A DNA stretch of 64,000 bases from Bacilli bacterium. GTDB lineage: Bacteria > Bacillota_I > Bacilli_A > RF39 > UBA660. The position numbers and the translations under genes were made by a program. The notes under the pieces are model-generated. The model was given only the letters and a program-made list of their open reading frames with translations, had not been told where the DNA came from and did not search any database. Shown one piece after another: positions 9,789 through 28,249 of this stretch. The stretch covers positions 1-64,000 of the forward strand of contig JAFSDH010000002.1 in NCBI GenBank assembly GCA_017436345.1, in the 5' to 3' direction. Numbering within the stretch: position 1 is the first letter of the stretch; each line of letters opens with the position of its first letter.

Positions 9789-10347
9789 TGTCATATATAT
9801 AATTATCATAGTAATAGAACTATTTCTTTTTAAGATGTACAATGATAAAAAAAATGAGGAAAAAAAAGAACAAATAGAAAGTAGTAGTATAAATTACATA
9901 TTAAACCAAGGAATAGAATATCGAAAAAAAAGTGATGAAAAAAATGTTATTAATTACGAAATGATATTAGAAATTCCTAAAATAAATTTAAAAAAAGGGA
10001 TATTATCAAAAGCGGATAAGGATAATAATATTGATAAGAATATTACTATTCTTGAACAATCATCATATCCAGATAAAGTAGGAAATATATTTTTAGCAGC
10101 TCATTCTGGATCAGGAAATAAATCATATTTTAATAATCTTGTTCAATTAAAGAAAGAAGATGAAGCAAAATTATATTTTAATGAGAAAATATATACTTAT
10201 AAATTACAAGAAATAAGATCAATAGAAAAAAATAAATACATTACTATAAGTACTAAAACAAATAATAATTTAATATTAATAACGTGCAATCAAAAAGAAA
10301 AAAATAGATTTCTATTTTTTATATTTACTTTAAAAGCAGAAGATTAG
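9772..10347 (+). CDS. Sortase
   Basis: This 191-aa membrane transpeptidase has an N-terminal membrane segment (about 5-21) and the sortase beta-barrel: LEIPKINLKKGIL, then catalytic His111 in AAHSGSG, Cys172 in LILITCN and Arg179 in KNRF. It overlaps the adhesin gene by 17 nt, so the pair is translationally coupled and the adhesin with its VPNTY signal is the likely substrate. The sortase class is not certain; the short form and PNT-type substrate fit the class B/D range. Confidence 0.88.
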   Translation: MQKVINVIYIIIIVIELFLFKMYNDKKNEEKKEQIESSSINYILNQGIEYRKKSDEKNVINYEMILEIPKINLKKGILSKADKDNNIDKNITILEQSSYPDKVGNIFLAAHSGSGNKSYFNNLVQLKKEDEAKLYFNEKIYTYKLQEIRSIEKNKYITISTKTNNNLILITCNQKEKNRFLFFIFTLKAED

Positions 10348-10360
10348 TTCTGCTTTTTTT
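10332..10360. terminator. Convergent terminator, sortase / ABC permease
   Basis: AAAAGCAGA (10332-10340) pairs with TCTGCTTTT (10349-10357). With A and T runs on either side it can serve the sortase (plus) and the permease operon (minus). Confidence 0.75.
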
Positions 10361-11138
10361 CTATATAAATATCCAATTTATTTATAATTAAATACATTAA
10401 ATAAGAAATTATCCCAAGAATAAAAGTAGCTGTAATAGTTAGATTAATATTAAATACTTGAGAACCATACATAATTAAGTATCCTAACCCTCTTTTCGAT
10501 ACTAACAGTTCTCCCATAATAACTCCAATTAATGACATACTTATGTTAATTTTAAAAGAACTTATTATATTTCTTAAATTACTTGGTACAATGACTTTAA
10601 AAAATATTTGATATTTACTAGCTTTTAAACTTTTCATTAAAATAATTAAATCTTTATCTGTTGAACTAAAAGCATTATATATATTTAATATTGATATAAA
10701 TGTGGAGATTAATAAAGCCATTATTATAATCGAATTTGTGCTTGCACCTACCCAAATAATAATTAAAGGACCAAGTGCTACTTTAGGTAAGGAGTTTAAT
10801 ATAGTTAAATATGGATCAAATACTTTAAATAGAAAATTACTCCACCAAAAAATAGATGCAATTATAAAACCAATAAATGATGCTATAAAAAAACTAATTA
10901 AAGTTTCGTAAAGAGTAATAGCAATGTGTTCTAGTAAATTGTTACTAATAAATAACTGTAAAATAGTATTAAAAACTTTGCTAGGTGCAGAATATAAAAA
11001 TGGGTTTAATATTTCCTTATATGATAATAGTTCCCAAATGATTAAAAATGTAAGAACTATTAATATCTGAACTAAAATGATTGTTATTTTTCTTTTTCGA
11101 TTTTTTCTTAAAAAATCTAAATGTTCTTTACTAAACAT
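10344..11138 (-). CDS. ABC transporter permease (NitT/TauT/ThiX type)
   Basis: This 264-aa inner-membrane permease has about six hydrophobic segments and a BPD_transp_1 domain with the ATPase-coupling EAA-like loop LMKSLKASKYQIFFKVIVPSNL. The GELLVSKRGLGYLIMYGSQVF segment is typical of SsuC/TauC/ThiX permeases. The start is the ATG at 11138, which overlaps the end of the ATPase gene by 8 nt (ATGTTTAG); a longer frame to 11225 reads through the ATPase fragment and is not used. It is intact, but the two upstream genes of its operon are split by insertions, so its transport role is probably lost in this state. Confidence 0.88.
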   Translation of the reverse strand: MFSKEHLDFLRKNRKRKITIILVQILIVLTFLIIWELLSYKEILNPFLYSAPSKVFNTILQLFISNNLLEHIAITLYETLISFFIASFIGFIIASIFWWSNFLFKVFDPYLTILNSLPKVALGPLIIIWVGASTNSIIIMALLISTFISILNIYNAFSSTDKDLIILMKSLKASKYQIFFKVIVPSNLRNIISSFKINISMSLIGVIMGELLVSKRGLGYLIMYGSQVFNINLTITATFILGIISYLMYLIINKLDIYIEKKQN

Positions 11139-11305
11139 GATTATCAATTTCTTTCCATATTTTATCATAATAAGAATTAAATTTTTCAGTTCGTCTTTTA
11201 GATGAAGGATAAAGATTATTATCAAAACTTATATTATGAATATTCTTAATTTTTGCAGGTCTTTTTGTTAATACTATTATTTTGTTAGAAAGACTTATAG
11301 CTTCA
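11131..11305 (-). pseudogene. C-terminal fragment of interrupted ABC transporter ATPase
   Basis: The minus strand encodes, without stops, 57 residues starting EAISLSNKIIVLTKRPAKIK and ending KEIDNHV, then TAG. This is the C-terminal tail of a NitT/TauT-family ATPase. The missing front is at 14565-15140, where the reading frame breaks after VTHDLAE. Joining the two at the shared TGAA gives HDLAEAISLSN in frame, the normal family sequence. Element A separates the halves. The stop overlaps the permease start. Confidence 0.9.
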
Positions 11306-11326
11306 CTTAGGTAAAAATAAACATAA
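11305..11326 (+). repeat. Element A left end: attP right half-site
   Basis: The arm begins ACTTAG just inside the TC crossover (11303-11304) and ends ACATAA. It is the inverted partner of 14544-14565 at the other end. Outside the core lies the host half-site within the ATPase gene. Confidence 0.75.
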
Positions 11327-11353
11327 AAAATGGTTTAAATAATATATATTAAT

Positions 11354-12481
11354 ATGGAAAAAATTAATACAGGGATTTATATAAGAGTCTCTACAGACGA
11401 ACAAGTAAAACATGGATATTCAATAAAAGCTCAAAAAGATAAGCTTGTTAATTTTGCTCAAATTAAGGAATGGAATATATATAAAATATATATAGATGAA
11501 GGAGTTAGTGGAAAAAATTTAAATAGACCAAAAGTCAAAGAACTAATTAATGATGTAAAAAATAAAAGTATTAATAATATCTTAGTATATAAAATTGATA
11601 GATTAACGCGTTCAACCAAAGATCTCATTGAATTAATTGAAATGTTTTCTAAATATAATTGTGAATTTAATTCCTTGACAGAATCAATTGATACATCTTC
11701 TCCATCGGGTAGAATGTTTATAAAAATAATTGGGCTTTTTGCCGAATTTGAAAGGGAAACCATTGCCGAAAGAATAAAAATTGGATTTGAAAGAAAAGTA
11801 AAAGAAGGATACAGTATTTGTTCTTCAACATCATCGTATGGATATAGTCGTATTAAAGGAAAAAAAATACAAATAATAAAAAAAGATGAAGCATTAATTG
11901 TAAGAAAAATATTTAAGATGTATCAAAACAATAAAAGTATTAAAGAAATCAAAAAATACTTATTATCAAAAAAAGTACCTACTAAAAAGAATAAAACATG
12001 GTCCAATAAAATGATTACTAATATATTAACTAACCCCAATTATATAGGTAAAGTAAGATATGGTATAAATAGAAAAGACTATTTTGAAAACGATGGTAAG
12101 CATCAGAGTATAATCTCTAGACAAGAATTTATGAGTATTCAAAAAAAAATAAATAATCAACTAAAAACTAAAGAAGATGCTTATTATTCGAATAAACTAA
12201 TTTGTATGTGTGGAAAAAAAATGCATACGAAAAGAACTTATATAAATAATAAAATATATATAAATTATACTTGTAAAAATAAATCATGCTTATTTAAGAG
12301 TATAAGTCATAAATTTTTAGATAGATATTTTAATATAAACAATATGAGCATAATTACTCAAAAAGATATAATTCAGAATATAGTAAAAGAAATAAGAATA
12401 ATCTCTTTAAAAAAAGAATTAAAGATTCTGTATAATTGTGTAAAATTAGAGAATGAAAACTTTACACTTATAAAAAAATAA
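11354..12481 (+). CDS. Serine recombinase of element A
   Basis: This 375-aa site-specific recombinase has the catalytic resolvase domain with the nucleophilic serine in YIRVSTDEQ, then KIDRLTRSTKDLIELIE and GLFAEFERETIAERIKIG. The recombinase DNA-binding domain (about 150-260) follows. A zinc-ribbon has Cys pairs in CMCGKK and CKNKSC (about 276-312), and the tail is short. At 375 residues it is compact for a large serine integrase. The ATG at 11354 lacks a good ribosome site, so expression may be weak or leaderless. It lies 50 bp inside the left end of element A and most likely catalyses its integration and excision. Confidence 0.93.
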   Translation: MEKINTGIYIRVSTDEQVKHGYSIKAQKDKLVNFAQIKEWNIYKIYIDEGVSGKNLNRPKVKELINDVKNKSINNILVYKIDRLTRSTKDLIELIEMFSKYNCEFNSLTESIDTSSPSGRMFIKIIGLFAEFERETIAERIKIGFERKVKEGYSICSSTSSYGYSRIKGKKIQIIKKDEALIVRKIFKMYQNNKSIKEIKKYLLSKKVPTKKNKTWSNKMITNILTNPNYIGKVRYGINRKDYFENDGKHQSIISRQEFMSIQKKINNQLKTKEDAYYSNKLICMCGKKMHTKRTYINNKIYINYTCKNKSCLFKSISHKFLDRYFNINNMSIITQKDIIQNIVKEIRIISLKKELKILYNCVKLENENFTLIKK

Positions 12482-12555
12482 AATGTCAAATTTGTCACTA
12501 ATGTATTTATAAAGGAAAATATAAAATATATACTAATAATAGGATAGGAGGTATT

Positions 12556-13131
12556 ATGAAAAAAACAAGAATTTTATCTGGTATGACGATGTTTATCGCT
12601 ATTGTTTTAATATTGACAGGATACTCTATTATATTCATAAATGATTATCAAGTTGATGCAAAAGAAGTGAGTTCATATGCCTCATTAATTAAGACAAGTT
12701 ATACGTCATATTCTTTAGATATGGAAAAAATATCATATGATATAAAAGAAACAGAAATATTTAATATTAAATATTATACGGAACTAAAGGTTAATTATGA
12801 TGCTAATAATCAAGAATTAAGTGACATTGAAACAAAAATAAAAGAAAGTGAAATTATGTCAAAAACTCTTTTACACGAATGTAGTGTAAGAGAATACAAT
12901 GACTATCAAATTGATTATAATTGTGAAATGATTAGTCACAACTATGAATCAATTATAAATGCTTATGTATCTCTAGTATCAAAATATAATAAACTAATAA
13001 ATGATTATAATAATTGGTTAGGAGAACAAAAAAATATAAATAGTAATAAATTAAATGAATATATACCTAAATATTATAATAAAAACATTGACATTAATAA
13101 TGACGGAGAATATTCTGGTGTAATAAAATAA
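12556..13131 (+). CDS. Membrane-anchored extracellular protein, unknown function
   Basis: This 191-aa protein has one N-terminal hydrophobic segment (about 10-30) that could be an uncleaved signal anchor. An extracytoplasmic helical, Tyr/Asn-rich domain follows, with two Cys (HECSVRE and NCEMIS) that could form a disulfide. I recognise no family. AGGAGG precedes the ATG. The next gene starts 11 nt downstream, so it is probably coexpressed with the phosphodiester-glycosidase-like protein as element A cargo. Confidence 0.7.
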   Translation: MKKTRILSGMTMFIAIVLILTGYSIIFINDYQVDAKEVSSYASLIKTSYTSYSLDMEKISYDIKETEIFNIKYYTELKVNYDANNQELSDIETKIKESEIMSKTLLHECSVREYNDYQIDYNCEMISHNYESIINAYVSLVSKYNKLINDYNNWLGEQKNINSNKLNEYIPKYYNKNIDINNDGEYSGVIK

Positions 13132-13142
13132 GGAGGAATAGT

Positions 13143-14540
13143 ATGAGATATGATGAGGATCTTGAAATAATTGATGCTTTTGAAGATATAGAACCAATAT
13201 CTCATATTATGAATAAGCCTGTAACAAAAAAAGAAGATAAAAAAGTAGAAAAAATATCAGTAAAGAAAGAAAATAATAAAAAAGAAAAAAATAATAATTA
13301 TAATAAAAAAAATAAACTATTATTTAATTCTATTATATTTTTACCAATATGTTCTTTAATATATTTAATATCACTTAATAGTAATATTTTAATTAATAAT
13401 AGAATTAGTATTTTTTCTCTTTGTTTAATAATATTATTTTTAATAACGTTAATAGTAGGAATTATAAAAGAAATATTCATTAAAAGAAATATCTTTATAA
13501 AACTATTAAAAACAACATCAGCTTTTTTATATATAAGTGTTTTTGTTGGAATAAGTATACTTTTATATGGAAATGATTCTACAGTAAGAGACTTTATTAT
13601 TGATAAAGCTATGTCAACAACTAATCATCAATATTTAGCTACATGGCTATTTGATGAAAATACAATAAGTACAAGTCTTTTACAATTAAAAGAAGCAACA
13701 CAAATAGAAATAAATGGAAGTGATAAAATTACTTTCAATGAGATAAATTATAATCAAGAAATTTATACTAGTATTTATGAAGAACAAATTTTAAATAAAG
13801 AAAATGAAGATGATTTATATAAAATAATTGAAATACAAGGAACAACAATAGGAGCTAATTATAAATACAAGGGATATTTAGTAGCTATATATGATCCTTC
13901 TAAAGTAAAAATAGGTACTTCAAGTGGAGCTGGTACTCATAATGGATCATATGGAGAAATTCTTTCAATGATATCAAAGAAAAATAATGCATTAGTGGCC
14001 ATGAATGCTGGTGGTTTCTATGATCCTAATTGGCGAAGTAATGGTGGAATTCCTCATGGTGCTGTTATTAAAGATGGAAAAATACAAAGTGAATTTAGAC
14101 GTGGGGATGTTAGTGGTGGATTAATTGGTTTTAACTACAACAATGAACTAGTATTAAAAAGAATGACTGCTGAAGAAGCTATTAATAGTGGAATAAGAGA
14201 TGCTGTTGACTGGGGACCTTATTTAATTGTTAATGGTAAAAATCAATATGCAAATGTAAAAAAATATAGTTGGGCAACGTCAAGAAGTGCAATTGGTCAA
14301 AGAGCTGACGGAATCGTATTAATGCTTGTTATCGATGGTGGAAATCAACCAGGAAGTTATGGAGCTAGCTATGCCGACATTGCTAAAATAATGGAAAACT
14401 ATGGAGCAGTAAATGCTGCTAATTTAGACGGTGGTACATCGACTGCTTTGGTAGAAAATAATGAATATGTAAATAATCCATGGAATGGTCATAAAAGAAC
14501 CATTAGAAGATTACCAAATGCTTGGATTGTTGTAAAATAA
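13143..14540 (+). CDS. Membrane protein with phosphodiester glycosidase (NAGPA-like) domain
   Basis: This 465-aa protein has an acidic/Lys-rich cytoplasmic N-terminus (1-57), several hydrophobic segments (about 58-140) and a C-terminal extracellular NAGPA domain. The domain shows ALVAMNAGGFYDPNW, GLIGFNYNNELV, WGPYLIVNGK, RSAIGQRADGIVLMLVIDG and ANLDGGTSTALVENN. The family cleaves phosphodiester-linked sugars and is found near polysaccharide genes, so a role in processing a cell-surface polymer is plausible. The substrate is unknown. It is the last gene of element A, ending 4 nt before the attP half-site. Confidence 0.85.
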   Translation: MRYDEDLEIIDAFEDIEPISHIMNKPVTKKEDKKVEKISVKKENNKKEKNNNYNKKNKLLFNSIIFLPICSLIYLISLNSNILINNRISIFSLCLIILFLITLIVGIIKEIFIKRNIFIKLLKTTSAFLYISVFVGISILLYGNDSTVRDFIIDKAMSTTNHQYLATWLFDENTISTSLLQLKEATQIEINGSDKITFNEINYNQEIYTSIYEEQILNKENEDDLYKIIEIQGTTIGANYKYKGYLVAIYDPSKVKIGTSSGAGTHNGSYGEILSMISKKNNALVAMNAGGFYDPNWRSNGGIPHGAVIKDGKIQSEFRRGDVSGGLIGFNYNNELVLKRMTAEEAINSGIRDAVDWGPYLIVNGKNQYANVKKYSWATSRSAIGQRADGIVLMLVIDGGNQPGSYGASYADIAKIMENYGAVNAANLDGGTSTALVENNEYVNNPWNGHKRTIRRLPNAWIVVK

Positions 14541-14543
14541 AAA

Positions 14544-14565
14544 TTATGTTAATAAGAATATAAGT
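14544..14565 (+). repeat. Element A right end: attP left half-site
   Basis: The arm opens TTATGTT and ends TAAGT directly before the TC crossover at 14566-14567. It is the inverted partner of 11305-11326, matching at 15 of 22 positions. Confidence 0.75.
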
Positions 14566-15140
14566 TCAGCTAAATCATGGGTAACCATAATAACTGTCTT
14601 ATGTTCTTTTTTTATAATTTTATATAAATCATCTGCAAGCATAATTCTTGTTTGATAGTCTAAGGCCGAAAAAGGTTCATCTAAGAGTAAAATATCAGGG
14701 TTAATAGCTAATGTTCTTATTAAAGCAACTCTTTGTCGCATACCGCCAGATAAACTTCTAGGATATTTATCTTTAAAGTCATATAATCCATAATTTTTTA
14801 AAAGACTAATAACTCTATTTTTAGTAATATCATTAAGTTCATTATAAATTTCTAATCCTAATAAACAATTATCAAGGACAGTACGCCAAGGTAATAATGA
14901 ATCTTTTTGTAACATATAGCCAATTCTTAAATTTTTATCTGATATAATGTTTCCTTCAGATTTTTCTTCTAGATTAGCAAGAATAGATAGTAAAGTGCTT
15001 TTTCCACAACCAGATGGACCTACTATTGATATGAAATCCTCTTCTTTAACTTCTAAAGAAATATTATCTATTGCTATAACTTCACTAGTAATATCATGAT
15101 ATATTTTTTTTAAATCATTTATTTTTAAAATATTACTCAT
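14565..15140 (-). pseudogene. N-terminal part of interrupted ABC transporter ATPase
   Basis: This 192-codon fragment has Walker A GPSGCGKST, a Q-loop (MLQKDSLLPWRTVLDN), the signature LSGGMRQRVALIRTLA, Walker B ILLLDEPFSALD and the switch His in VTHDLAE. The native frame breaks at the TGAA core; the open frame runs 7 further codons (LIFLLT, then stop at 14544) inside element A. The last 57 residues are at 11131-11305. The start overlaps the substrate-binding protein stop by 8 nt (ATGAGTAA). The nucleotide-binding core is complete but the tail is lost. Confidence 0.9.
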
Positions 15141-15540
15141 TTACTGTATAAATTAAATCCTTATAGTTTACAGCCTTATCTAAGTGACCTGCTGCAATCA
15201 TTATTTCCTGTAGATGATCAAACGACTCTTTAGAAAAAGAAGTTGTTGTAGGCCAAGTATCTTGTTCTTTATAACGATTAATTACTTTTACCAAATCATT
15301 TAAAGACGTATCTGGGAAGAACTCTAAAATTATTTCAGCAATTTTATTACTATCATTTTCATTAACAAAATCTAATCCTCTTTGAATAGCACTATTAAAA
15401 CTAAGTATAATATCAGGATTTTCTTCTATAAAACTAATCTTAGCGTTATATGATGTATATGGTACATTTCCTCCTAATTCACCTAAAGATGCAACTACGT
15501 AACCATATCCTTGACTTTCTACCTCCAAAGCATTAGGTTC
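15133..15540 (-). pseudogene. C-terminal part of interrupted ABC substrate-binding protein
   Basis: The minus strand reads on from the GAAC core as P-N-A-L-E-V-E-S-Q-G-Y-G and then VVASLGELGGNVPYTSYNA, ending YKDLIYTVNE. This is the C-terminal third of an NMT1/THI5-like periplasmic-binding-fold lipoprotein or anchored protein. The frame is open through the junction, and an internal ATG at 15528 makes it look like a separate gene. It is one of three pieces of a single 330-aa protein, the others being 22130-22281 and 27808-28249. Confidence 0.92.
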
Positions 15541-15557
15541 TCTTAGTGTTACAAAAG
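15541..15557 (+). repeat. Element B left end: attP right half-site
   Basis: TCTTAGTGTTACAAAAG directly follows the TC crossover (15539-15540) and is the inverted partner of 22115-22131. Confidence 0.75.
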
Positions 15558-15629
15558 AATGTAAAGTAGTACTAATTAATTAAAAATAGAAAAATATATT
15601 ATGTTATACTACTAATAGTAGGTGATAAT

Positions 15630-16961
15630 ATGAAAAAAGGAATTTTACTTCCAATATTTTCCTTACCAAGTAAGTATGGAATAGGAGATTTTGGATATGA
15701 AGCATATGAATTTATTGATATTTTAAGTAGTAATAATATAGATTACTGGGAAATATTGCCGATAAATGATGATATTGGATCTCCTTACAGTCCGATAAGT
15801 TATTATGCTTTAAACAGAAATTATGTATCTTTAGATAAATTAAAAGAAATGAATTTGATAAATAAACCTCAAACAAAAGCTACGACTCCAAGAATCGTCT
15901 ATGACAATTTTAAAGAAAAGTATTATTTTGAAGCTTATAATAATTTTAAAGGTAATGATGAATATCTTGAGTTTATAAAAAATGAAGAAATAATTAAATA
16001 TGCCTTATTTATGCAAGAAAAAACTAATATTGAAAAAGAATACTTTTTGTTTTTACAATATATACTAGATAAGCAATGGAATGAATTAAAAGAATATGCT
16101 CATAGTAAAAATGTAAAAATAATAGGCGATTTACCTATATATCCAGACTACAATTCAGTAGAGGTAAAATACTATCCACAATATTATCAATTAAATAATG
16201 ATAATAAGATGGAATATGTATCAGGAGCATCACCAGACTACTTTAATAGTGAAGGTCAAAAATGGGGACATCCATTATATAATTTCGATGAAATGAAAAA
16301 AAATAATTATGAATATTTAATTAAGCGATATCAAGAATTCTTAAATAAATATGATTTAATTAGAATTGACCACTTTAGAGCTTTTGATACTTACTTTAAA
16401 ATACCAGTAAATGGCAGTGCTAAAGAAGGAATATACGTAGAAGGACCTGGAAAAAATTTCTTTAATCAATTATTTAAAATAACATCGAGTGATAAATTTA
16501 TTATTGAGGATTTAGGTGACTTACGAAAAGAAACATTTGAACTTAAAGACTATTATAATTTTAAAGGAATGAAAATAATTCAATATACCTTAAATCCAAA
16601 AGAGAAAAAAGATGAATATAATGATGTAGAAAACATGGTAATATATACTGGAAATCATGATAATAATACAATTGTTGGATGGTACAATAGTATATCAAAA
16701 CTAGATCAAATAAATATTAAAGAATTCTTAAAAGAACAAAATTGTTATGATGAAGACATTCATATAAGTTTTATTAAATATATATTAAAAAGTAAGGCTG
16801 ATCTAGCAATTATACCTGTTCAAGACATAATTGGTCTTGATGAAAATTCAAGAGTAAATTTGCCAGGTACTGTAGACAATAGTAATTGGTCTTGGCAATT
16901 AAAAAATTTCGAAGAATTTAAAAATAATATTACTATATTAAATGAGACTATTAAACAATAG
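15630..16961 (+). CDS. malQ: 4-alpha-glucanotransferase (GH77, amylomaltase)
   Basis: This 443-aa cytoplasmic GH77 enzyme transfers alpha-1,4-glucan segments during maltodextrin or glycogen use. The family signatures are present: LPSKYGIGDFG near the N-terminus, SPYSPISYYALN, IRIDHFRAF with the nucleophilic Asp, FIIEDLGDL with the acid/base Glu, and YTGNHDNNTIVGWY. It is shorter than the usual roughly 500 residues, apparently by a compacted helical subdomain around residues 95-150. RBS AGGTGAT precedes the ATG, with an extended -10 (TGTTATACT, to 15610) just inside the element. It is the first cargo gene of element B and no other maltose genes are nearby. Confidence 0.92.
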   Translation: MKKGILLPIFSLPSKYGIGDFGYEAYEFIDILSSNNIDYWEILPINDDIGSPYSPISYYALNRNYVSLDKLKEMNLINKPQTKATTPRIVYDNFKEKYYFEAYNNFKGNDEYLEFIKNEEIIKYALFMQEKTNIEKEYFLFLQYILDKQWNELKEYAHSKNVKIIGDLPIYPDYNSVEVKYYPQYYQLNNDNKMEYVSGASPDYFNSEGQKWGHPLYNFDEMKKNNYEYLIKRYQEFLNKYDLIRIDHFRAFDTYFKIPVNGSAKEGIYVEGPGKNFFNQLFKITSSDKFIIEDLGDLRKETFELKDYYNFKGMKIIQYTLNPKEKKDEYNDVENMVIYTGNHDNNTIVGWYNSISKLDQINIKEFLKEQNCYDEDIHISFIKYILKSKADLAIIPVQDIIGLDENSRVNLPGTVDNSNWSWQLKNFEEFKNNITILNETIKQ

Positions 16962-16968
16962 TCTTTTT
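16945..16968 (+). terminator. Terminator overlapping the malQ stop
   Basis: AGACTATT (16945-16952) pairs with AATAGTCT (16957-16964) around an AAAC loop, followed by T residues. The stop codon lies in the 3' arm. Confidence 0.75.
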
Positions 16969-16970
16969 AC

Positions 16971-16999
16971 TTTACTTGTTATTAACAAAATGTTATAAT
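16971..16999 (+). promoter_or_regulatory. Promoter of the nucleotidase-hydrolase gene
   Basis: TTTACT (16971-16976), a 17-bp spacer and TATAAT (16994-16999), preceded by TGT as an extended -10, sit 19 bp before the ATG at 17019. Confidence 0.7.
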
Positions 17000-17018
17000 C
17001 AAAACAAGAGGTGATATT

Positions 17019-19017: not shown

Positions 19018-19055
19018 AAAGTGTTATAATATGCACTACAAAGGAGAGATTACAT

Positions 19056-21101: not shown

Positions 21102-21130
21102 AAAGACTTATCATAAAAGTCTTTTTTTTT
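21101..21130 (+). terminator. Terminator after the aminotransferase-GNAT gene
   Basis: AAAGACT (21102-21108) pairs with AGTCTTT (21118-21124), followed by a long T run. It separates cargo from the recombinase gene. Confidence 0.78.
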
Positions 21131-21179
21131 AATATATTTTAGTATAAAAATTATTCATTATTGAAAAGGATGAATATAG

Positions 21180-22106
21180 ATGAACTTATATGAAATAAGA
21201 CAAAAACTAAATATGGGATATAATCTGAAAGATATAAGATTAAGAGTAACGTTTTATTCGAGAGTATCAACAGATCATAATGAACAAAAAAACTCTTTGT
21301 CAAATCAAAGTGAACATTTTAAAAAAATAATAAAAGCTAATAGAAACTGGGAGTATGTAGAAGGATATGTAGATGATGGTATTACTGGAATGAGTGTTCA
21401 AAAAAGAGATAGTTTTAAAAGAATGATTATCGATTCTAAAAATAATAAATTTGATTTAATAATTACAAAAGAAATATCTAGATTTTCGAGAAACACATTA
21501 GATAGTATAAAATACACTAGAGAACTATTAAATAATGGTGTTGCTGTATTATTTTATAATGATAATATAAATACCATTTTCCCCGATAGTGAACTAAGAC
21601 TTACAATAATGGCATCGATGGCCCAGGATGAAGTAAGAAGACTATCTGAAAGAGTAAAATTTGGGATGAAAAGAGCTCAAGAAAAAGGCGTAATGTTAGG
21701 AAATAATCAAATTTATGGATATAAAATAAATAAAGAACAAGATAAATTAATAGTACTTGAAGACGAAGCAAAAGTTATAAAAAAAATATTTAATATGTAT
21801 ATTGAAAAAAATTTATCTTTTAATAAAATATCTAAAGTACTAAATAAAGAAAATATAAAGACAAAGTTTGAAAAAAAATGGAACCCATCACAAATATCAA
21901 GAATAATAACAAATCCAAAATATAAAGGATATTTTTGTGCTAGAAAAAAAGAAGTTATTGATTATATGAATAAAAGAATAAAAATAAATGAAAAAGATAA
22001 ATGGATTATCTATAAAGATGAAGAAAGAATACCTGTAATTATAGAAGAAAAAATATGGAACAAGGCAAATAAAAAACTAAGTAAAAAGAATAAAAAAGAA
22101 AAGTAA
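21180..22106 (+). CDS. Serine recombinase of element B, minimal form without zinc ribbon
   Basis: This 308-aa recombinase has the catalytic serine in TFYSRVSTDH, TKEISRFSRNTLD and MASMAQDEVRRLSERVKFG. A recombinase DNA-binding domain (about 180-300) has NKISKVLNKENI, WNPSQISRIITNPKYKG and WIIYKDEERIPVIIEEKIW. The protein stops where other large serine recombinases enter the zinc ribbon and coiled coil, and ends KKLSKKNKKEK. There is no sign of frameshift: the stop is followed within 9 nt by the attP arm. AAGGATG precedes the ATG. It is the terminal gene of element B and points toward the right end. Confidence 0.92.
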   Translation: MNLYEIRQKLNMGYNLKDIRLRVTFYSRVSTDHNEQKNSLSNQSEHFKKIIKANRNWEYVEGYVDDGITGMSVQKRDSFKRMIIDSKNNKFDLIITKEISRFSRNTLDSIKYTRELLNNGVAVLFYNDNINTIFPDSELRLTIMASMAQDEVRRLSERVKFGMKRAQEKGVMLGNNQIYGYKINKEQDKLIVLEDEAKVIKKIFNMYIEKNLSFNKISKVLNKENIKTKFEKKWNPSQISRIITNPKYKGYFCARKKEVIDYMNKRIKINEKDKWIIYKDEERIPVIIEEKIWNKANKKLSKKNKKEK

Positions 22107-22114
22107 TAATGCTA

Positions 22115-22131
22115 TTTATATAACACTATGT
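22115..22131 (+). repeat. Element B right end: attP left half-site
   Basis: TTTATATAACACTATGT lies directly before the TC crossover (22132-22133) and is the inverted partner of 15541-15557. Confidence 0.75.
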
Positions 22132-22281
22132 TCAAATAGTGATACAAAATCTCCTATTCCTGAAATAAAGGAACCACTCATAGCACCAAAACTTATACTT
22201 GTATCAATATTTACATCTTTATTAGGATCAATTCCATGTTGTCTTAAAATCCACTCTAAAGTCATCTCTGGCATACCACCT
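22130..22281 (-). pseudogene. Middle fragment of interrupted ABC substrate-binding protein
   Basis: About 150 bp between elements B and C encode, on the minus strand and without stops, GGMPEMTLEWILRQHGIDP, NKDVNIDTSISFGAMSGSF and ISGIGDFVSLFE. These are highly typical NMT1/THI5-like binding-protein sequences. The piece begins in frame from the AGGTG core shared with 27808-27812 and ends in the GAAC core shared with 15537-15540. It has no start or stop of its own and is too short to be found as a gene. It links the N-terminal (27808-28249) and C-terminal (15133-15540) pieces. Confidence 0.93.
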
Positions 22282-22299
22282 GTTGGGGAAAAAAGTGAT
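22281..22299 (+). repeat. Element C left end: attP right half-site
   Basis: TGTTGGGGAAAAAAGTGAT directly follows the CC crossover (22279-22280) and is the inverted partner of 27791-27809. Confidence 0.78.
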
Positions 22300-22303
22300 A
22301 AAG

Positions 22304-22332
22304 TTGACTTTTTTTTAAAATTATAGTATTAT
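22304..22332 (+). promoter_or_regulatory. Promoter at the left end of element C
   Basis: TTGACT (22304-22309), 17 bp and TATTAT (22327-22332) sit 5 bp inside the attP arm, upstream of the mgtC-like gene. The cargo therefore carries its own promoter, and binding of the recombinase to the end could block it. Confidence 0.7.
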
Positions 22333-22361
22333 TTAAAGCACTTTTTGGGGGGAGATATAGT

Positions 22362-23039
22362 ATGGATACTTTGGATTTTGCAACAAGAATAGTAATAGCA
22401 TTATTACTGGGAATGTTTATTGGTTTTGAAAGACAAATAACAGGTCATCCAGCAGGAATTAGAACAAATATGTTAATCTGTCTTGGTTCTTGTATGTTCT
22501 TATTATTTCCAATGATTATGGGTTCAGATGATATACAAAGAGTTGCCAGTTATATTGTATCTGGTGTCGGTTTTTTATGTAGTGGTGTTATTTTTAAAGA
22601 AAATGGTACTGTTAAAGGATTAAATACGGCAGCAACACTATGGTGTACAGCAGCAATTGGTTTACTTTCTAGTTCAGGAATGTATTCTTATGCCTTTATT
22701 GCAACATTTATCTTGTTAATGGCAAATATCTTATTTAGACCATTATCACAAAAAATAGAACCACTAGATTCTTTTAACGAAGATGAAAGCTTTTACAAAA
22801 TAAATGTTGTTTGTCATGAAAAAGATGAATTAAAAGTAAGATCTGAAATTCTAAAAGAAATAAAAGGAACAAAATTAACATTAACTGAGTTAGATACTAA
22901 AGAACTAGAGAATAACAAAGTACAAATAGAAGCAACATATCGCTTTATTGGTCAAAGAGTTGATGAAACAATTGAAAGCTTAGTTGCAACACTTAGTATT
23001 AAACATGGTATTAAAAAAGTAGGTTGGGAAATTATTTAA
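22362..23039 (+). CDS. MgtC/SapB family membrane protein
   Basis: This 225-aa protein has about four transmembrane segments with the MgtC signature RIVIALLLGMFIGFERQ, HPAGIRTNMLICLGSC and GFLCSGVIFKENGTVKGLNTAATLWCTAAIGLL. A soluble C-terminal ACT-like domain (about 145-225) follows. MgtC proteins are linked to growth in low magnesium and to membrane-potential control, and in some bacteria they inhibit F-ATPase. A GGGGGG-type ribosome site precedes the ATG. The terminator lies inside its last codons. It is cargo of element C. Confidence 0.9.
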   Translation: MDTLDFATRIVIALLLGMFIGFERQITGHPAGIRTNMLICLGSCMFLLFPMIMGSDDIQRVASYIVSGVGFLCSGVIFKENGTVKGLNTAATLWCTAAIGLLSSSGMYSYAFIATFILLMANILFRPLSQKIEPLDSFNEDESFYKINVVCHEKDELKVRSEILKEIKGTKLTLTELDTKELENNKVQIEATYRFIGQRVDETIESLVATLSIKHGIKKVGWEII

Positions 23040-23052
23040 CCCGACCTTTTTT
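23021..23052 (+). terminator. Terminator embedded in the 3' end of the mgtC-like gene
   Basis: AGGTTGGG (23021-23028, coding) pairs with CCCGACCT (23040-23047) with one G-U pair, and T residues follow. The 5' arm codes for the last residues of the protein. Confidence 0.72.
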
Positions 23053-23066
23053 GTTCGAATTTTTGT

Positions 23067-23095
23067 TTGACTTATAGCACGTTTTATGTTATAAT
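23067..23095 (+). promoter_or_regulatory. Strong sigma-A promoter of the element C adhesin
   Basis: TTGACT (23067-23072), exactly 17 bp and TATAAT (23090-23095) precede the ATG at 23128. This is close to consensus and predicts high expression. Confidence 0.85.
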
Positions 23096-23127
23096 AGCAA
23101 GCAATTAAGCAAGTAGGGGGAATATAT

Positions 23128-24948
23128 ATGAAAAAATTAAGTATTGCTTTTAAAAGATTATTATTAATAATAATTGCTTTTTCAAGTGTAGTGAGTACAA
23201 ATGTATTTGCTGCAACAAGTGCTCCTAGTACTATTACTATGGGTACAGGTAAACAATTAACAGGATATGTTAATGGTACATATTTTTCAACAAAAGTAAC
23301 TAATGATGGAAAATATGCATATTGTACAGACATCAATAAAAAAACACCTAATGGAATGAAAATGACATTAGTAGAAGCAAAAGATGCTGGTATGTCTTAT
23401 ATTATTCAAAATGGATATCCAAAAAAATCATTTACAGGAGATGCCAACAAAGATTATTACATTACTCAAGCTGCTGTTTGGTGGTATTTAGATGATACAA
23501 CAGGAAGCTCTAATTTAAGTAATAGTTTTAAAACAACAGGATCAGACAGTTATGGATTAAGAAAATATATTAAACAACTAGTAGCTGATGCTAAAGAAGC
23601 AAAACAAGACGGATATACAAAACCAAGTGTTAGTTTAAGTGTTAGTTCAACAACTTTAACTTTATCTTCTGATAAAAAATATTATTATTCAGGAGAAATT
23701 ACAGTAAAAGCAACATCTATAAAAGGAAAAGTATCATTAAGTTTAACAGATGCACCAAAAGATGCAAAAATAGTTAATACTAGTGATAAAGAAGTAAGTA
23801 GCGTAAATGCAGGAGCAAAAGTTAAAATTAAAGTTCCTGCAAGTAATGTTTCAAACTTAGAAACATCATTTACAATTAAAGCAACAGCTACTGGAGAAGT
23901 TTATAAATCTTATATGTATAAACCAAGTAATAGTAATTATCAACCAGTTGTAATTGGTGTGTTATTTCCAGAAACATCAACAGTAAATGCAAGTAAAAAA
24001 TTTACAATAAAATCAGCACAAGTAGAAATCATTAAAGTTGATACAGAAACAAATAAACCTTTAGCAGGAGCTAAATTAGAATTAAGAGATAACAAAGGTA
24101 ATGTTGTTGATTCATGGACTTCTACTACAAGTGCACATACAATTAAAAATTTACCTGAAGGGACATATAAATTAGTTGAAACAAAAGCACCAGATGGATA
24201 TAAATTAAATGATACAGCTCAAGAAGTAACATTAAAAGCAGGGGTGCTAACAAAGGTTTCATTCTATAATAGTAAAAAAGAACCTACAAAAGTAGTGATA
24301 ATTAAAAGGGATAAAGAAACAAATGAAACTTTAGCAGGAGCAGTATTCGTACTTAAGGATTCTACTGGTAAAGAAATAACTACATGGACATCAACAACAA
24401 ATGGACATTATGTTTCAGGATTACCAGAAGGAGAATATACAGTTGAAGAATTAACAGCTCCAGAAGGTTATATTAAATCTGATGAAGTTCAAAAAGTTAA
24501 ATTAGAGTCTGGTAAAACAGTAACTGTTACATTCTATAATCAAAAAGAAGTAATTGAAATTAAAACATTAGTAGAAATTCGTAAAGTAAATGGTGAAACA
24601 GGCGAATATTTAGCAGGAGCTGACCTAGTACTAAAAAATAGTGCTGGTGAAGTTATTGATACATGGACTACTACAAATGAAGCTCATGTTATTGAAAATT
24701 TAAAACCTGGAAAATATTATATTTCTGAAACAAAAGCACCAAATGGATTTATTTTATCAACAGAAGTTGTGGAAATTGAAATAACAGAAGATGGTGGAAC
24801 AGTAATAGCTACTTTCTACAACACACCTGAAATTGAAGTTCCTAATACATTAACAAATAAATCAATACTTGCAATAGTTGTTGGTATTATTACAATCACA
24901 ATTGGTGGAAGTATTGTATATATAAACTATAGAAAAGAAGAAATATAA
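23128..24948 (+). CDS. Sortase-anchored thioester/Cna-B adhesin (element C)
   Basis: This 606-aa surface protein has a signal peptide (cleavage near NVFAAT). Its thioester domain has Cys66 (YAYCTDIN) and Gln114 (YITQAAVWWY). A beta domain follows (about 160-290), then three Cna-B/SpaA modules (about 293-385, 386-480 and 486-575), each opening with V-x-I-x-K-x-(D/N) and closing with a PEG(T/E)Y or PGKYY and ETKAP-like strand. The C-terminus has the sorting signal VPNTL, a hydrophobic helix and YRKEEI. The modules are near-repeats and probably carry isopeptide bonds. The partner sortase follows 1 nt downstream. It resembles the chromosomal protein at 8310-9788 but is longer by one module. Confidence 0.9.
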   Translation: MKKLSIAFKRLLLIIIAFSSVVSTNVFAATSAPSTITMGTGKQLTGYVNGTYFSTKVTNDGKYAYCTDINKKTPNGMKMTLVEAKDAGMSYIIQNGYPKKSFTGDANKDYYITQAAVWWYLDDTTGSSNLSNSFKTTGSDSYGLRKYIKQLVADAKEAKQDGYTKPSVSLSVSSTTLTLSSDKKYYYSGEITVKATSIKGKVSLSLTDAPKDAKIVNTSDKEVSSVNAGAKVKIKVPASNVSNLETSFTIKATATGEVYKSYMYKPSNSNYQPVVIGVLFPETSTVNASKKFTIKSAQVEIIKVDTETNKPLAGAKLELRDNKGNVVDSWTSTTSAHTIKNLPEGTYKLVETKAPDGYKLNDTAQEVTLKAGVLTKVSFYNSKKEPTKVVIIKRDKETNETLAGAVFVLKDSTGKEITTWTSTTNGHYVSGLPEGEYTVEELTAPEGYIKSDEVQKVKLESGKTVTVTFYNQKEVIEIKTLVEIRKVNGETGEYLAGADLVLKNSAGEVIDTWTTTNEAHVIENLKPGKYYISETKAPNGFILSTEVVEIEITEDGGTVIATFYNTPEIEVPNTLTNKSILAIVVGIITITIGGSIVYINYRKEEI

Positions 24949-24949
24949 T

Positions 24950-25666
24950 TTGAAAAAAAGAAAATTATTACGTCTAGGAATTATCATAATATTATTAGGA
25001 ATTTCATTAACATCTTATGAATATTTTCTAGCAAAGAAAAGTTATGCATTTGAGTATATGAATAACAAATTGTATTTATCTTCAAATGAAACTCCCGAGT
25101 TTATTGAAGAAGAAGGTATAACAACAGATGAAGATACTTATGATGAGGATTTAACTGTTGAAGAAATAACAAATAACACAAATAATATAAATAATCAAAA
25201 TAATACTAGTAATAATACTCAAACACAAAAAAAGAATAATACTAAAAAAGAAAATTATTATTATATTGGTTATCTAGAAATACCAAAGATAAATTTTAAA
25301 AAGGGGTTTGTCGATATTAACTCACAAGACAATGTTGTAAGTAAAAATATTACAATTATTTCTGGATCTAAATATCCTAATATAGATAAAGGTAACTTTA
25401 TTATAGCGGGGCATTCTGGGACAGGAATACATTCTTATTTTAAAAACTTATACAAATTATCCTTAAATGATAAAGCATACGTATATTATAAAAACGTTAA
25501 ATATACATATAAAATAGTAAATATATATAAACAACCAAAAGATGGTACAGTGGCTATATATAGAGATTATACAAAAACAACTTTAACTTTAGTAACATGT
25601 ACAAAAGACGATAAAACATCACAAACAATTTACGTTGCGGAGTTAGAGAGTAAAATAAACTATTAA
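24950..25666 (+). CDS. Sortase (element C)
   Basis: This 238-aa sortase has an N-terminal membrane helix (about 8-24), an Asn/Thr-rich linker (about 70-102) and the catalytic barrel: YLEIPKINFKKGF, His155 in IIAGHSG and Cys217 in LTLVTCT. The usual active-site Arg a few residues after the Cys is not seen; the strand reads DDKTSQTIYVA. The gene starts with TTG at 24950, immediately after the adhesin stop at 24948, suggesting translational coupling. The adhesin with VPNTL is the likely substrate. Confidence 0.88.
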   Translation: MKKRKLLRLGIIIILLGISLTSYEYFLAKKSYAFEYMNNKLYLSSNETPEFIEEEGITTDEDTYDEDLTVEEITNNTNNINNQNNTSNNTQTQKKNNTKKENYYYIGYLEIPKINFKKGFVDINSQDNVVSKNITIISGSKYPNIDKGNFIIAGHSGTGIHSYFKNLYKLSLNDKAYVYYKNVKYTYKIVNIYKQPKDGTVAIYRDYTKTTLTLVTCTKDDKTSQTIYVAELESKINY

Positions 25667-25682
25667 AAAAGGGGGTGGGTTG

Positions 25683-26462
25683 ATGTTACAATTAACATTA
25701 TTAGAAAAATTAAAAATATTGTTTGATTTAATATTAGCATCCCCATTCTTTATTTTTCTATTAATATTTACAATATTAGTATTTATAATATTATTAGATA
25801 GTAAAAATTATAAAAAAAGACAAGTACAAAAATATATATTAGGAATATACTTATTAGTTTTTATTGCGGTTATTATTAAACATCATTCATCTTTCCTATC
25901 AGTTGTTGATTATTTAATAAATAACGTATTTGTGATATTCTATTTTCCAAATATTGCTGTATATGCCATAATGATAATAATTATAAATATAATTATGTTA
26001 AAAAGTATTTTTTCTAATAAGGATAAAATAATACGAACAGTTAATATGGCATCATATAGTATAATAATGTACTTAATGTTGTTAATCATATATACAATAA
26101 CTACTGAAAGTATTGATGTTTATAATGAAGTATCATTATATTCAAACACAACAATACTATCATTAGTTGAACTAAGTAATATATTATTTCTTATATGGAT
26201 TATTTTAATACTTCTAAATAAACTACTAGATTTCTTAGAAACTAAAGGACTTAAAACTAAAAGTAAGATTCTTCCTACAATAGAAAAAGAAATTGTAACA
26301 GTAGAAAAAGAAGTAATTAAAGAAGTTCCAGTAGAGGTAATAAAAGAAGTACCTATTGAAGTAGAAAGAGTAGTATATAAAGAAAAACAAGTAGATATGT
26401 TTACTAAAGAAGAATATCTTGTTATGTTAAATATATTAAAAAATGATTATAAAAAAGACTAG
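25683..26462 (+). CDS. Polytopic membrane protein with repetitive charged C-terminus, unknown function
   Basis: This 259-aa protein has about five hydrophobic segments (about 12-38, 50-66, 78-110, 122-146 and 157-182). A cytoplasmic tail with a repeated E-V-P-(V/I)-E-V type unit follows (about 204-242: EKEVIKEVPVEVIKEVPIEV), probably an extended or coiled rod. The start is the ATG at 25683 after GGGGGTGGG; a TTG at 25680 is less likely. It follows the sortase closely and may assist surface assembly. No family recognised. Confidence 0.68.
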   Translation: MLQLTLLEKLKILFDLILASPFFIFLLIFTILVFIILLDSKNYKKRQVQKYILGIYLLVFIAVIIKHHSSFLSVVDYLINNVFVIFYFPNIAVYAIMIIIINIIMLKSIFSNKDKIIRTVNMASYSIIMYLMLLIIYTITTESIDVYNEVSLYSNTTILSLVELSNILFLIWIILILLNKLLDFLETKGLKTKSKILPTIEKEIVTVEKEVIKEVPVEVIKEVPIEVERVVYKEKQVDMFTKEEYLVMLNILKNDYKKD

Positions 26463-26477
26463 AAATAGTCTTTTTTT
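26451..26477 (+). terminator. Terminator separating element C cargo from the recombinase
   Basis: An 11-bp stem, AAAAAAGACTA with TAGTCTTTTTT, has a GAAA loop (26462-26465) and runs into T residues. Confidence 0.85.
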
Positions 26478-26511
26478 AATTTGTTAGAATAAAATGTTCT
26501 AGGAGGAATAC

Positions 26512-26598
26512 ATGAAACAAATAACTATAATTAAACACTATTCTAATAATAAGCAATCATTAATGGAACTAATCAATAGATTAAAAATTAAAATATGA
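26512..26598 (+). CDS. 28-aa ORF coupled to the serine recombinase
   Basis: AGGAGGAATAC places a strong ribosome site before the ATG at 26512. The product is MKQITIIKHYSNNKQSLMEL followed by INRLKIKI. Its TGA overlaps the recombinase ATG (ATGA, 26595-26598), and the recombinase has no ribosome site of its own. The small frame therefore probably drives recombinase translation by coupling; a function as a peptide is possible but unproven. Confidence 0.7.
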   Translation: MKQITIIKHYSNNKQSLMELINRLKIKI

Positions 26599-27803
26599 AT
26601 ATTGCTTTGTATATGAGATTATCAAAAGAAGATGAAGAAAATAAAGAAAGTAAGAGTATTAGTAATCAAAAAATATATTTAAATAATTATATAAATAAAT
26701 TTGAATATAAAAATGTATATGAGTATGTAGATGATGGATATAGTGGAACGAATTTTAATCGCCCGGCATTTAATCAATTATTAAAAGATATAGAAAATAA
26801 AAAAATTAATACTATAATAACAAAAGATTCATCACGCTTAGGAAGAAATGTTAGTTGGGTTACTTATTATATAGAAGAATATTTTCCTAGTAAAAAAATA
26901 AGATATATATCCATAGATGATAATTATGATTCTGAAAATATAAATTCAACAGAGATGGAACTGTTAACATTTAAAACTTTATTTAATGATTATTATTGCC
27001 GAGACATTTCTAAAAAAATTAGATCGAGTCTAAAAATAAAGAAAATCGAAGGGAAATTTACTGGTTGGAAAGCCCCATATGGCTATAAAAAAAGTAAAAA
27101 AGATAAATATCATTTAGAAATAGATAAGAGTGTAGAAAAAAATGTTAAAGAAATATTTAAACTAGCATATGAAAAAAATACTCCAAGCAAAATTGCTTTA
27201 ATTTTAAATAATAAAAAAATTAAATCTCCATCAGAATATATTGGACTAAAAAATAGCAAGTGGAGTACCAAAACAATAACAGATATTTTAACAAATGAAA
27301 CATACATAGGAAATCTTACTCAGGGAAAGAGAAAAAAAATAAATCATAAGTTAAAACAAAGTATAACTCTTCCTAAGGATGAATGGATTATAAAGAGAAA
27401 TACTCATGAACCAATTATTAATAAATACATATTTGATATAGTGCAAGAAAATCTTTCTAAGAGTAAAAATATAAAAAAAAATAATATAAAAAACTATCGA
27501 TTACTTAATTTAATGTATTGTAAAGAGTGTTTATCCAAGATTGGTATAAATAAAAAAAATAATAATTTATATTGTGTATGTAATAACTATAAAAAAAATT
27601 ATAAATATAAGAAATGTACTCCTCATAGTTATAATTATTTAAAACTAGAAAAAAAGATTATTGAAGAACTAAATCAAGATATAAATAAAATAGGTAGAGA
27701 TATAAAAAATGATGAAATATATTTTGATATGCTACAAAAAATATATATATCAGAATATGGAGAAATAGAACTATTTTTAAATTATAATTCATCACTTTTA
27801 TAG
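26595..27803 (+). CDS. Serine recombinase of element C
   Basis: This 402-aa recombinase has catalytic Ser in ALYMRLSKEDEE, TKDSSRLGRNVSWV, and the YCRDISKKIRSSLKIKK linker helix. A recombinase domain has WSTKTITDILTNETYIGNL and WIIKRNTHEPII, and a zinc ribbon has Cys in YCKECLS and CVCNNYKKNYKYKKC (about 310-344). A short C-terminal helix follows. Its start overlaps the stop of a 28-aa ORF. Its stop codon lies inside the attP half-site (27791-27809), so the gene and the element end are fused. It differs strongly from the recombinases of A and B, so the three elements are not copies of one another. Confidence 0.94.
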   Translation: MNIALYMRLSKEDEENKESKSISNQKIYLNNYINKFEYKNVYEYVDDGYSGTNFNRPAFNQLLKDIENKKINTIITKDSSRLGRNVSWVTYYIEEYFPSKKIRYISIDDNYDSENINSTEMELLTFKTLFNDYYCRDISKKIRSSLKIKKIEGKFTGWKAPYGYKKSKKDKYHLEIDKSVEKNVKEIFKLAYEKNTPSKIALILNNKKIKSPSEYIGLKNSKWSTKTITDILTNETYIGNLTQGKRKKINHKLKQSITLPKDEWIIKRNTHEPIINKYIFDIVQENLSKSKNIKKNNIKNYRLLNLMYCKECLSKIGINKKNNNLYCVCNNYKKNYKYKKCTPHSYNYLKLEKKIIEELNQDINKIGRDIKNDEIYFDMLQKIYISEYGEIELFLNYNSSLL

Positions 27804-27809
27804 CAATCA
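27791..27809 (+). repeat. Element C right end: attP left half-site
   Basis: ATCACTTTTATAGCAATCA lies directly before the CC crossover (27810-27811) and contains the recombinase stop codon. It is the inverted partner of 22281-22299. Confidence 0.78.
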
Positions 27810-28249
27810 CCTTCTCGTCCACCAATGATGAATTTCCCTCGTAGGTCATCTAAAGTAAAATTATCAATTTTTTCTCTTGATACAATAAAACTTCCATCTT
27901 TTTGTGTAAGTTGGGCAAAGGTTTTTAAATAATCTTCTTCTCCACCATTATATACATAAATGGTTGCTTCACTTCCACAAAATCCAATATCAACATCACC
28001 AGATAATACAGCAGCAGTAACTTTATCAGCACCATTAGCTAGTGACAACTCAATATCTATACCTTCATCTTCAAAATATCCATTTGCAATTGCAACATAC
28101 TGTGGAGCATAAAAAATACTGTGTGCCACTTCTGCTACCTTAATAGTTTTTAATTTATTCTCATCTTTCTTATTTAAATTAAATAATACAGAACATAATA
28201 TTATGAAAATTAATAAAATAAAAATAGAATTAATAATAATTTTTCTCAT
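27808..28249 (-). pseudogene. N-terminal part of interrupted ABC substrate-binding protein
   Basis: The minus strand encodes a signal-anchor sequence (about 1-24), then KVAEVAHSIFYAPQYVAIAN, GYFEDEGIDIELSLANGADK and GDVDIGFCGSEATIYVYNG, and ends in frame at IIGGREG where element C begins. This is the first half of an NMT1/THI5-like binding protein. The open frame runs on to a stop at 27782 inside the element. With 22130-22281 and 15133-15540 it makes 442+147+404 = 993 nt, i.e. 330 aa plus stop. AAGGAGGT (28254-28261) precedes the start. The Cys in LCSVLF could be a lipobox, but it is not convincing. Confidence 0.92.

Follow-up and report, generated by a model that had tools for sequence, protein, structure and literature searches.

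A minus-strand ABC-transporter operon of uncultured Bacilli, split at seven recurrent sites by serine-recombinase elements that are probably excised in the mother cell

The stretch of DNA analysed here (the window: positions 1 to 64,000 of contig JAFSDH010000002.1, GenBank assembly GCA_017436345.1, from a Bacilli bacterium of the RF39/UBA660 lineage) carries an operon for an NMT1/SsuA-like substrate-binding protein, an ABC ATPase and a permease, the first two of which are cut into pieces by three different elements (A, B, and C), each with its own serine recombinase. The three cassettes are probably excised in the mother cell during sporulation, rebuilding the binding-protein and ATPase genes. 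This reading draws, from sequence, on the short cores that each element's two ends share and the dyad symmetry of those ends, recombinases that form clades by insertion site, sites common to many genera, purifying selection on interrupted genes, and the sporulation genes of the hosts. A broader proposal, put forward with only a little more confidence than doubt, is that the operon is a multi-bay docking station for at least four recombinase lineages on seven motif sites; where several bays are filled, all the elements would have to leave in one doomed cell before the transporter works (an AND gate at the DNA level), with relatives of the recombinases also in other cell-envelope genes. Genomes and loci in the comparison have G and L codes; G000 is the window's own genome, of 1.70 Mb.

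A reading made previously from the letters of the window (the sequence-only reading) had described the pieces, gaps and gene order of the operon, and all of these were recovered when the sequence was re-examined (Table 1). It had also described each gap as one serine recombinase plus plus-strand cargo, which holds for every gap (PF00239 with PF07508), but the recombinases, which it called unrelated, are not random strangers: each falls in a clade specific to its site. When the three inserts are taken out, with the 4–5 bp cores counted once each, the result is a binding protein of 993 nt (330 aa) and an ATPase of 747 nt (248 aa), as had been claimed; joined literally, the piece coordinates first given for them produce frameshifts, because every core then enters twice. 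The core pairs are CACCT (22277–22281/27808–27812), GTTC (15537–15540/22130–22133), and TTCA (11302–11305/14565–14568), and these junctions were placed separately from the automatic mapping used for relatives. Each rebuilt gene has one terminal stop and no internal stop; the window thus has the split coding sequence, with frame restored at a short repeat, of a sporulation gene-intervening element. The element ends are dyad-symmetric about the cores, the best centres of the reconstructed attP sites pairing 15 (C), 13 (B), and 17 (A) of 25 positions. Three of the four Resolvase-domain matches in G000 are in the operon. Since relatives are split at identical residues, the interruptions in the window are evidently not due to chance.

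Nine genomes of the window's genus were compared. Five have a binding-protein match, all of them split at identical residues: site A is occupied in G000, G001, G005, and G007, and site B in G000, G005, G006, and, as far as its contigs show, G007. G000 and G006 have the ATPase interrupted at site C, and a recombinase in G007 adjoins an ATPase piece that starts at a further site, D. The operon holds 10 of the 31 Resolvase matches in the nine genomes.

The family sample consisted of 291 genomes drawn evenly from a larger group, 229 of them with the binding protein. Apart from G000, G005, and G006, the 61 with at least two binding-protein matches were re-examined, together with four with a single partial match; genomes with one match were otherwise left uninspected. 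A two-sided split was found in 57 of these 65 (29 at site B, 28 at A, 4 at E, and 3 at F; six at more than one site, G198 at three), bringing the total to 60 of 229 genomes, in 45 genera and at four recurrent positions. Two sites in the ATPase (C and D) and one in the permease (G, near residue 205, with one two-sided case, L191, and one-sided cases adjoining a recombinase) make seven. The housekeeping protein TsaD, taken as a control, matched more than once in 2 of 260 genomes. The ATPase and permease genes were checked in 40 genomes whose binding protein is uncut, chosen among the best-scoring matches and to some extent for contig space: 23 have both genes in full, 7 have an ATPase split on both sides, and 10 are incomplete or one-sided; the binding-protein match is also unsplit in 34 more distant loci (L056–L092 without L067, L075, and L086), found by a search that favours uncut copies. 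The close matches that bear a name are to uncultured Bacilli and the like, including two to Candidatus Onthousia. Of the two suggestions made in the sequence-only reading, that of a targeted landing site is strongly supported by the seven recurrent sites, the site-following recombinase clades and the many genera involved.

The junctions fall within conserved motifs: GGREGGMPEMT (A), DFVSLFEPNA (B), GADKV (E), and ATIYVYN (F) in the binding protein, THDLAEA (C, the H-loop) and LSGGMRQRVALIRT (D, the ABC signature) in the ATPase, and SLIGVIMGE (G) in the permease. Among 64 junctions mapped in relatives (23 at A, 19 at B, 8 at D, 5 at C, 4 each at E and F, and 1 at G), the motif is rebuilt at 57 (A 19/23, B 17/19, C 5/5, D 7/8, E 4/4, F 4/4, G 1/1). 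The other seven (L201, L205, L209, L215, L218, one of L222, and L250) miss it by at least a few residues, a discrepancy attributed to the mapping method. No joined peptide contains a stop, in 64 junctions placed by a finder that penalises stops. The window cores recur in relatives, AGGTG at A in G001 and G005, GAAC at B, and TGAA at C in G006. When pairs of elements were aligned, identity was high just inside the 5′-flank core and low outside it in 7 of 12; the other five, one of them a within-genus pair, lack such a boundary.

That the splits are artefacts of assembly or contamination is hardly credible. The assemblies are drafts, many of them metagenome-assembled, and contigs or coordinates are near-identical in two genome pairs (G192/G214 and G065/G266), but the junction residues and cores are the same in many genera and in named assemblies (L067, L075, L086, L026, and L027), and the recombinase clades follow the sites.

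These clades were examined in a tree of 118 N-terminal recombinase sequences, from which sequences shorter than 300 aa and two duplicate loci (L067 and L086) were excluded; a genome present in two collections may account for more than one tip. Relabelling was needed twice: L230_G142_B1 belongs by its position to site A, and L220_G261_F1 is located upstream of the gene. With these corrections, the recombinases group by site at A (31/31), B (26/26), E (4/4), F (4/4), and G (11/11). Those of site C form a group of seven with one outsider, which lies beside a split carboxypeptidase gene in G001; at site D, 10 of 11 are in the clade. The exception there, L251 in G228, is an unrelated serine recombinase (23% identity), which suggests that the ABC signature motif has been targeted independently. 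In the tree, A is separated from E by other recombinases of the genus, and such recombinases also separate the B/F, C/G, and D parts. Orientation also follows the site: of 82 rows assigned to A, B, C, E, F, or G, all but one (L203) are antisense to the operon, and the 13 assigned to D all run with it. In G227 (L232) a second, 165-aa recombinase-A-like piece lies beside the B enzyme.

Element acquisition includes both deep and recent events. The site A recombinases of the window's genus are one clade, and synonymous divergence (dS) is similar for the site A recombinase and its host gene in G000/G001 (0.95 vs. 0.87) and in G005/G007 (0.16 vs. 0.14), so that in the latter pair the element has been co-inherited with the gene. 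Between genera, recombinases that occupy one and the same site can be near-identical, with a nucleotide identity far above that of the ATPase: 100% vs. 65% for G048/G198, 96% vs. 73% for G071/G157, and 94% vs. 63% for G065/G086. G192 and G214 are nearly identical including their host genes, and may be cross-contaminated. In L214 (4211–9304) and L222 (5207–10245), which come from two genera, a near-identical stretch of DNA takes in half of element A together with the part of the binding-protein gene lying between sites E and A; pieces of the host gene can therefore travel too. Transformation is a possible route of spread, since all but one of the nine genomes compared in the genus carry ComEC-type genes.

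Interrupted copies of the binding protein remain under purifying selection. Within genera, its ratio of nonsynonymous to synonymous rates (omega) is 0.05–0.25 where dS is measurable, in split and unsplit copies alike. Pieces 1 and 2 of G005 and G007 (199 codons) differ at 8.5 nonsynonymous and 15.5 synonymous positions (p = 9.5e-7), and the synonymous excess is significant in each of seven chosen pairs split at the same site (Fisher p ≤ 1e-6). Stops occur in aligned codons of 6 of 61 split genomes, at residue 146, 157, or 202, and are read as alignment overhang beyond a junction.

The distribution of the elements might instead reflect a safe harbour, a dispensable transporter in which cassettes land repeatedly, later hits being cost-free, with no programmed excision. 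Occupancy does vary within genera (12 have both split and uncut binding proteins among the genomes compared), recombinases jump between genera, one gene can hold several elements (three in G198), and the recombinase of window element B is truncated. Such an explanation is nevertheless unlikely: selection on interrupted pieces is strong even where the element has been co-inherited (G005/G007), stops are confined to the six genomes just mentioned, and a mother-cell-type promoter and a link to spoIVA, described below, point to a developmental role.

Some assemblies may record mixed states of the operon. In each of G194 and G024, the two contigs carrying the halves of the gene end at the site A core with no element bases, and the L017 contig ends at the site D core; of 14 contig ends within 5 bases of the end of a gene fragment, five, from three assemblies, are exactly at cores. 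A graph assembler breaks where a flank has two successors, and for this reason the core-ending contigs presumably reflect coexisting empty and occupied chromosomes, or different elements. Mixed states, like the dyad att ends, would also be expected of a reversible switch, with stochastic or nutrient-cued excision and reinsertion in vegetative cells tuning uptake in the manner of phase variation or active lysogeny. This seems improbable: the promoter pattern is sigma-K-type and in no case sigma-A-type, the operon co-occurs with spoIVA, and serine recombinases of such elements need a directionality factor to excise, as reported in PMC5595907.

The region upstream of the binding protein in the family has the form mACm-N16/17-CATATAATA. 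A relaxed sigma-K pattern is found in 75 of 89 upstream regions (10.2 expected) and a strict one in 29 (0.9 expected), while a sigma-A-like pattern is found in none of the 89; the reference here is the B. subtilis sigma-K consensus as generally given. The relaxed pattern is also present in 25 of 42 loci in the L013–L055 range (5.5 expected) and in 19 of 34 more distant orthologues (1.9 expected). Among 947 control open reading frames (ORFs) of the same loci, 120 have the relaxed pattern (71.2 expected) and 27 the strict one (4.2 expected). A sigma-E-type pattern (19/89 vs. 11.1 expected) was unconvincing. For comparison, a second promoter of C. difficile sigK is given as −10 CATATAAT and −35 AC, and the C. 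difficile sigma-K regulon as including ytlC, an ABC ATPase that may or may not be orthologous, in PMC3789822. Sulfonate transporters in C. difficile are under SigH control according to PMC7438776, and substrate class alone therefore does not imply sigma-K.

The window's genome has Spo0A, SpoIVA, and a SigK-like sigma factor, with a second sigma-factor match that reads as SigE-like. Across the family sample, 215 genomes have both the binding protein and spoIVA, 14 the binding protein only, 35 spoIVA only, and 27 neither (p = 1.6e-11); spoIVA is present in 57 of 60 split genomes. Because of its promoter pattern and its relatives, the operon is likely to be a spore-making one, expressed in the mother cell. 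As to substrate, thiamine-type uptake was considered and set aside, with no TPP riboswitch found in the window or in the loci of nine relatives; NCBIfam matches of the transporter were to SsuA and similar families, all sub-threshold.

Other genes may be interrupted as well. About 20 family genomes (e.g., G006, G010, G029, G060, G118, G166, G197, and G275) have two or three SpoIVA matches, each at roughly half strength, and it is possible that spoIVA itself is interrupted in these. Within the window's genus, recombinase elements interrupt a D-Ala-D-Ala carboxypeptidase gene at one place in G005 (L322, 3811–10497) and at another in G001 (L330, 3592–7983), with one side seen in G007 (L327). A recombinase adjoins an Amidase_3/CwlD-like and LysM (SafA-type) piece in L313 (2616–9051) and L315 (8100–12604), from G000 and G005; a LysM protein adjoins a recombinase element in L314; and a ZIP-family transporter gene is apparently split around a recombinase in G008 (L317, 6881–11512). 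The cases from the genus fit a tendency of the elements to collect in envelope and sporulation genes, whose mother-cell role is putative.

In the proposed mechanism, each recombinase, probably with a putative directionality factor, would cut out its element late in the mother cell, and the forespore chromosome would retain all of them. The transporter would be required in the doomed mother cell only. Elements that excise in time would be tolerated, and independent ones could park in one operon at no vegetative cost, with the host pieces intact; this tolerance would explain why several recombinase lineages have converged on conserved motifs (the ABC signature, the H-loop, and those of the binding protein) as attachment sites. 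The other suggestion of the sequence-only reading, that the insertions form a switch, gains indirect support from selection during interruption, the sigma-K-type promoter, co-occurrence with spoIVA and the core-ending contigs. Its likeliest form is a one-way rearrangement in a terminal mother cell rather than a free multi-input switch.

Several points weigh against excision in the mother cell. Stop-free joins in relatives are not independent evidence, since the join finder penalises stops, and TsaD is a control that, being essential, cannot be called neutral. The upstream sequences had already been viewed when the relaxed promoter pattern was framed, the window −10 (CGTATAATA) fits only this pattern, the excess of the strict pattern over shuffles extends to control ORFs (27/947 vs. 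4.2), and related genomes are not independent in these counts. The SigK match of G000 (290.0 bits) is under the curated cut-off (298.65), and 3 of 60 split genomes have no spoIVA over its cut-off. The highest within-genus omega of the binding protein, 0.246, is in the window's own lineage (G000/G001); the site B recombinase of G005/G007 differs more than that of site A (dS 0.28, omega 0.26); and contigs ending at cores could come from a site that is occupied by two different elements. Recombinases A and C resemble their nearest relatives, but many family homologues are longer. In element B the outer att half-site is weaker, and the recombinase has 308 aa, compared with 567 aa (G006) and 472 aa (G005) for others at this site.

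This last point bears on the window directly. The serine motif of site-specific recombinases (RVST/RLSK) is kept in all three enzymes, and elements A and C look competent, with recombinases close in length to those of their closest relatives (402 vs. 399 aa in G001 for A, and 375 vs. 361 aa in G006 for C). Element B may be locked, its recombinase dead for want of the C-terminal part, and because of this truncation the rebuilding of the transporter in G000 may depend on another enzyme acting in trans.

Elements in the window and its relatives range from 2.6 to 13.3 kb. Their cargo is diverse: 67 elements contain 331 ORFs of at least 90 aa, recombinases included, and those other than recombinases form 182 clusters, 131 of them singletons. 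Within the genus, cargo at site A is largely common to the window and G001 and partly common to G005/G007; at C it is common to the window and G006; and at B it differs among G000, G006, and the G005/G007 pair. No relaxase, type IV secretion, other transfer, or replication domains were found by Pfam in the 10 scanned cargo proteins of the three window elements, which sets these apart from integrative conjugative or mobilizable elements. A phage origin of the window recombinases was not borne out by viral scans, covering A and B, which gave one weak match each (48% identity for B, 27% for A). Of 171 cargo representatives of at least 110 aa, 151 were scanned. PHROGs, run on 74, gave repressor-like, tail-fibre-like, and reverse-transcriptase matches with 1–3 members each, on account of which phage-derived cargo is possible in some elements. 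PADLOC, run on the other 77, gave restriction-modification and candidate models, one member each among the matches listed (25 of 94 families), and a defence-island theme was rejected.

Table 1. The operon and its three intervening elements in the window
Feature	Position	Strand	Remarks
Promoter-like sequence, sigma-K-type, −35 CACA, −10 CGTATAATA	28275..28303	−	relaxed pattern only
Substrate-binding protein (NMT1/SsuA-like), piece 1, residues 1–~147, including core AGGTG (CACCT on +)	27808..28249	−	
Element A at site A, motif GGREG/GMPEMT of binding protein (cut at slash), CACCT cores	22277..27812	+	core same in G001, G005
Element A serine recombinase, 402 aa, with Zn ribbon	26595..27803	+	
Element A cargo: MgtC, thioester/SpaA surface protein, sortase, unknown 260-aa protein	22362..26462	+	same set in G001
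Binding protein, piece 2, residues ~147–196	22130..22281	−	
Element B at site B, motif DFVSLFEPNA of binding protein, GTTC cores	15537..22133	+	
Element B serine recombinase, truncated, 308 aa, Zn ribbon not found	21180..22106	+	
Element B cargo: GH77 4-alpha-glucanotransferase, nucleotidase/nucleoside hydrolase fusion, DUF5662, aminotransferase-GNAT fusion	15630..21101	+	
Binding protein, piece 3, residues ~195–330	15133..15540	−	
ABC ATPase, piece 1, residues 1–~191	14565..15140	−	
Element C at site C, ATPase H-loop motif THDLAEA, TTCA cores	11302..14568	+	core same in G006
Element C serine recombinase, 375 aa	11354..12481	+	
Element C cargo: 191-aa unknown protein, NAGPA phosphodiester glycosidase	12556..14540	+	orthologues in G006
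ABC ATPase, piece 2, residues ~192–248	11131..11305	−	
ABC permease, uncut	10344..11138	−	site G of relatives near residue 205

Beside the operon is a thioester/SpaA surface protein and sortase pair (8310–10347), with a homologous pair in the cargo of element A (23128–25666). Elsewhere in the window, inspection by eye found a 2760-aa surface-protein-like ORF (42151–50433) amid secreted-protein and signal-peptidase-like genes. A T-box leader is located at the window end (63773–63958).

The rebuilding of genes as a programmed step of sporulation has so far been described in isolated instances. The dozens of natural replicates in this operon make it testable why developmental genes attract such elements, and provide many recombinases with attachment sites that follow directly from a comparison of occupied with empty relatives. 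They would also tie a little-known SsuA/NMT1-type transporter to the late mother cell, and indicate that metabolic and surface-protein cargo moves between gut genera, with no transfer genes seen in the window elements.

Among known systems, staphylococcal cassette chromosome (SCC) elements are likewise cargo cassettes with Ccr serine recombinases, and the window recombinases match the CcrA, CcrB, CcrC, and XisF models, far below their cut-offs: 187.5 bits or less against 700–900 for Ccr, and at best 138.7 against 375 for XisF. SCC elements integrate at the end of rlmH and are not known to split a developmental gene; the insertions here are in an ABC operon. At a hot spot for large serine recombinases, distant recombinases likewise target one gene, for a prolyl isomerase, but at one conserved site (PMC10083194), rather than at separate sites along an operon.

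The sequence-only reading knew of no described system of this form, but two come close: cyanobacterial heterocyst elements, including those of nif genes, and sporulation gene-intervening elements. The former (in nifHDK, hup, and fdxN) resemble the present ones in having several variants per gene or operon, recombinases that mostly cluster by variant, variable cargo, and a terminally differentiated cell; one survey (PMC4874684) counts 101 elements, with four in one nifD and six nifH variants. They differ in phylum and cell type, and in the same source 52 of 100 identified recombinases are of the tyrosine type and the mean element length is 41.5 kb. The latter are known as skin (in sigK), SPbeta (spsM), vfbin (spoVFB), vrin (spoVR), gin (gerE), and yin (yabG), as named in PMC4191935, PMC5595907, and PMC10747680, where gin is described as having no phage-related genes. 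As here, a serine-recombinase element splits a mother-cell gene at a short direct repeat and its excision in the mother cell rebuilds the gene, excision and the mother-cell role being presumptive in the present case. The window elements are read as belonging to this kind (skin, SPbeta, gin), whose structure they share and whose mother-cell expression they would share. For an operon saturated like this in a spore former, no report was listed in searches of an open-access library that takes in few subscription papers. The differences from the known cases are a transporter operon as target, up to three elements per gene, and a family-wide distribution of elements of 2.6–13.3 kb; it is the saturation of one operon, at seven sites in three genes, that is new.

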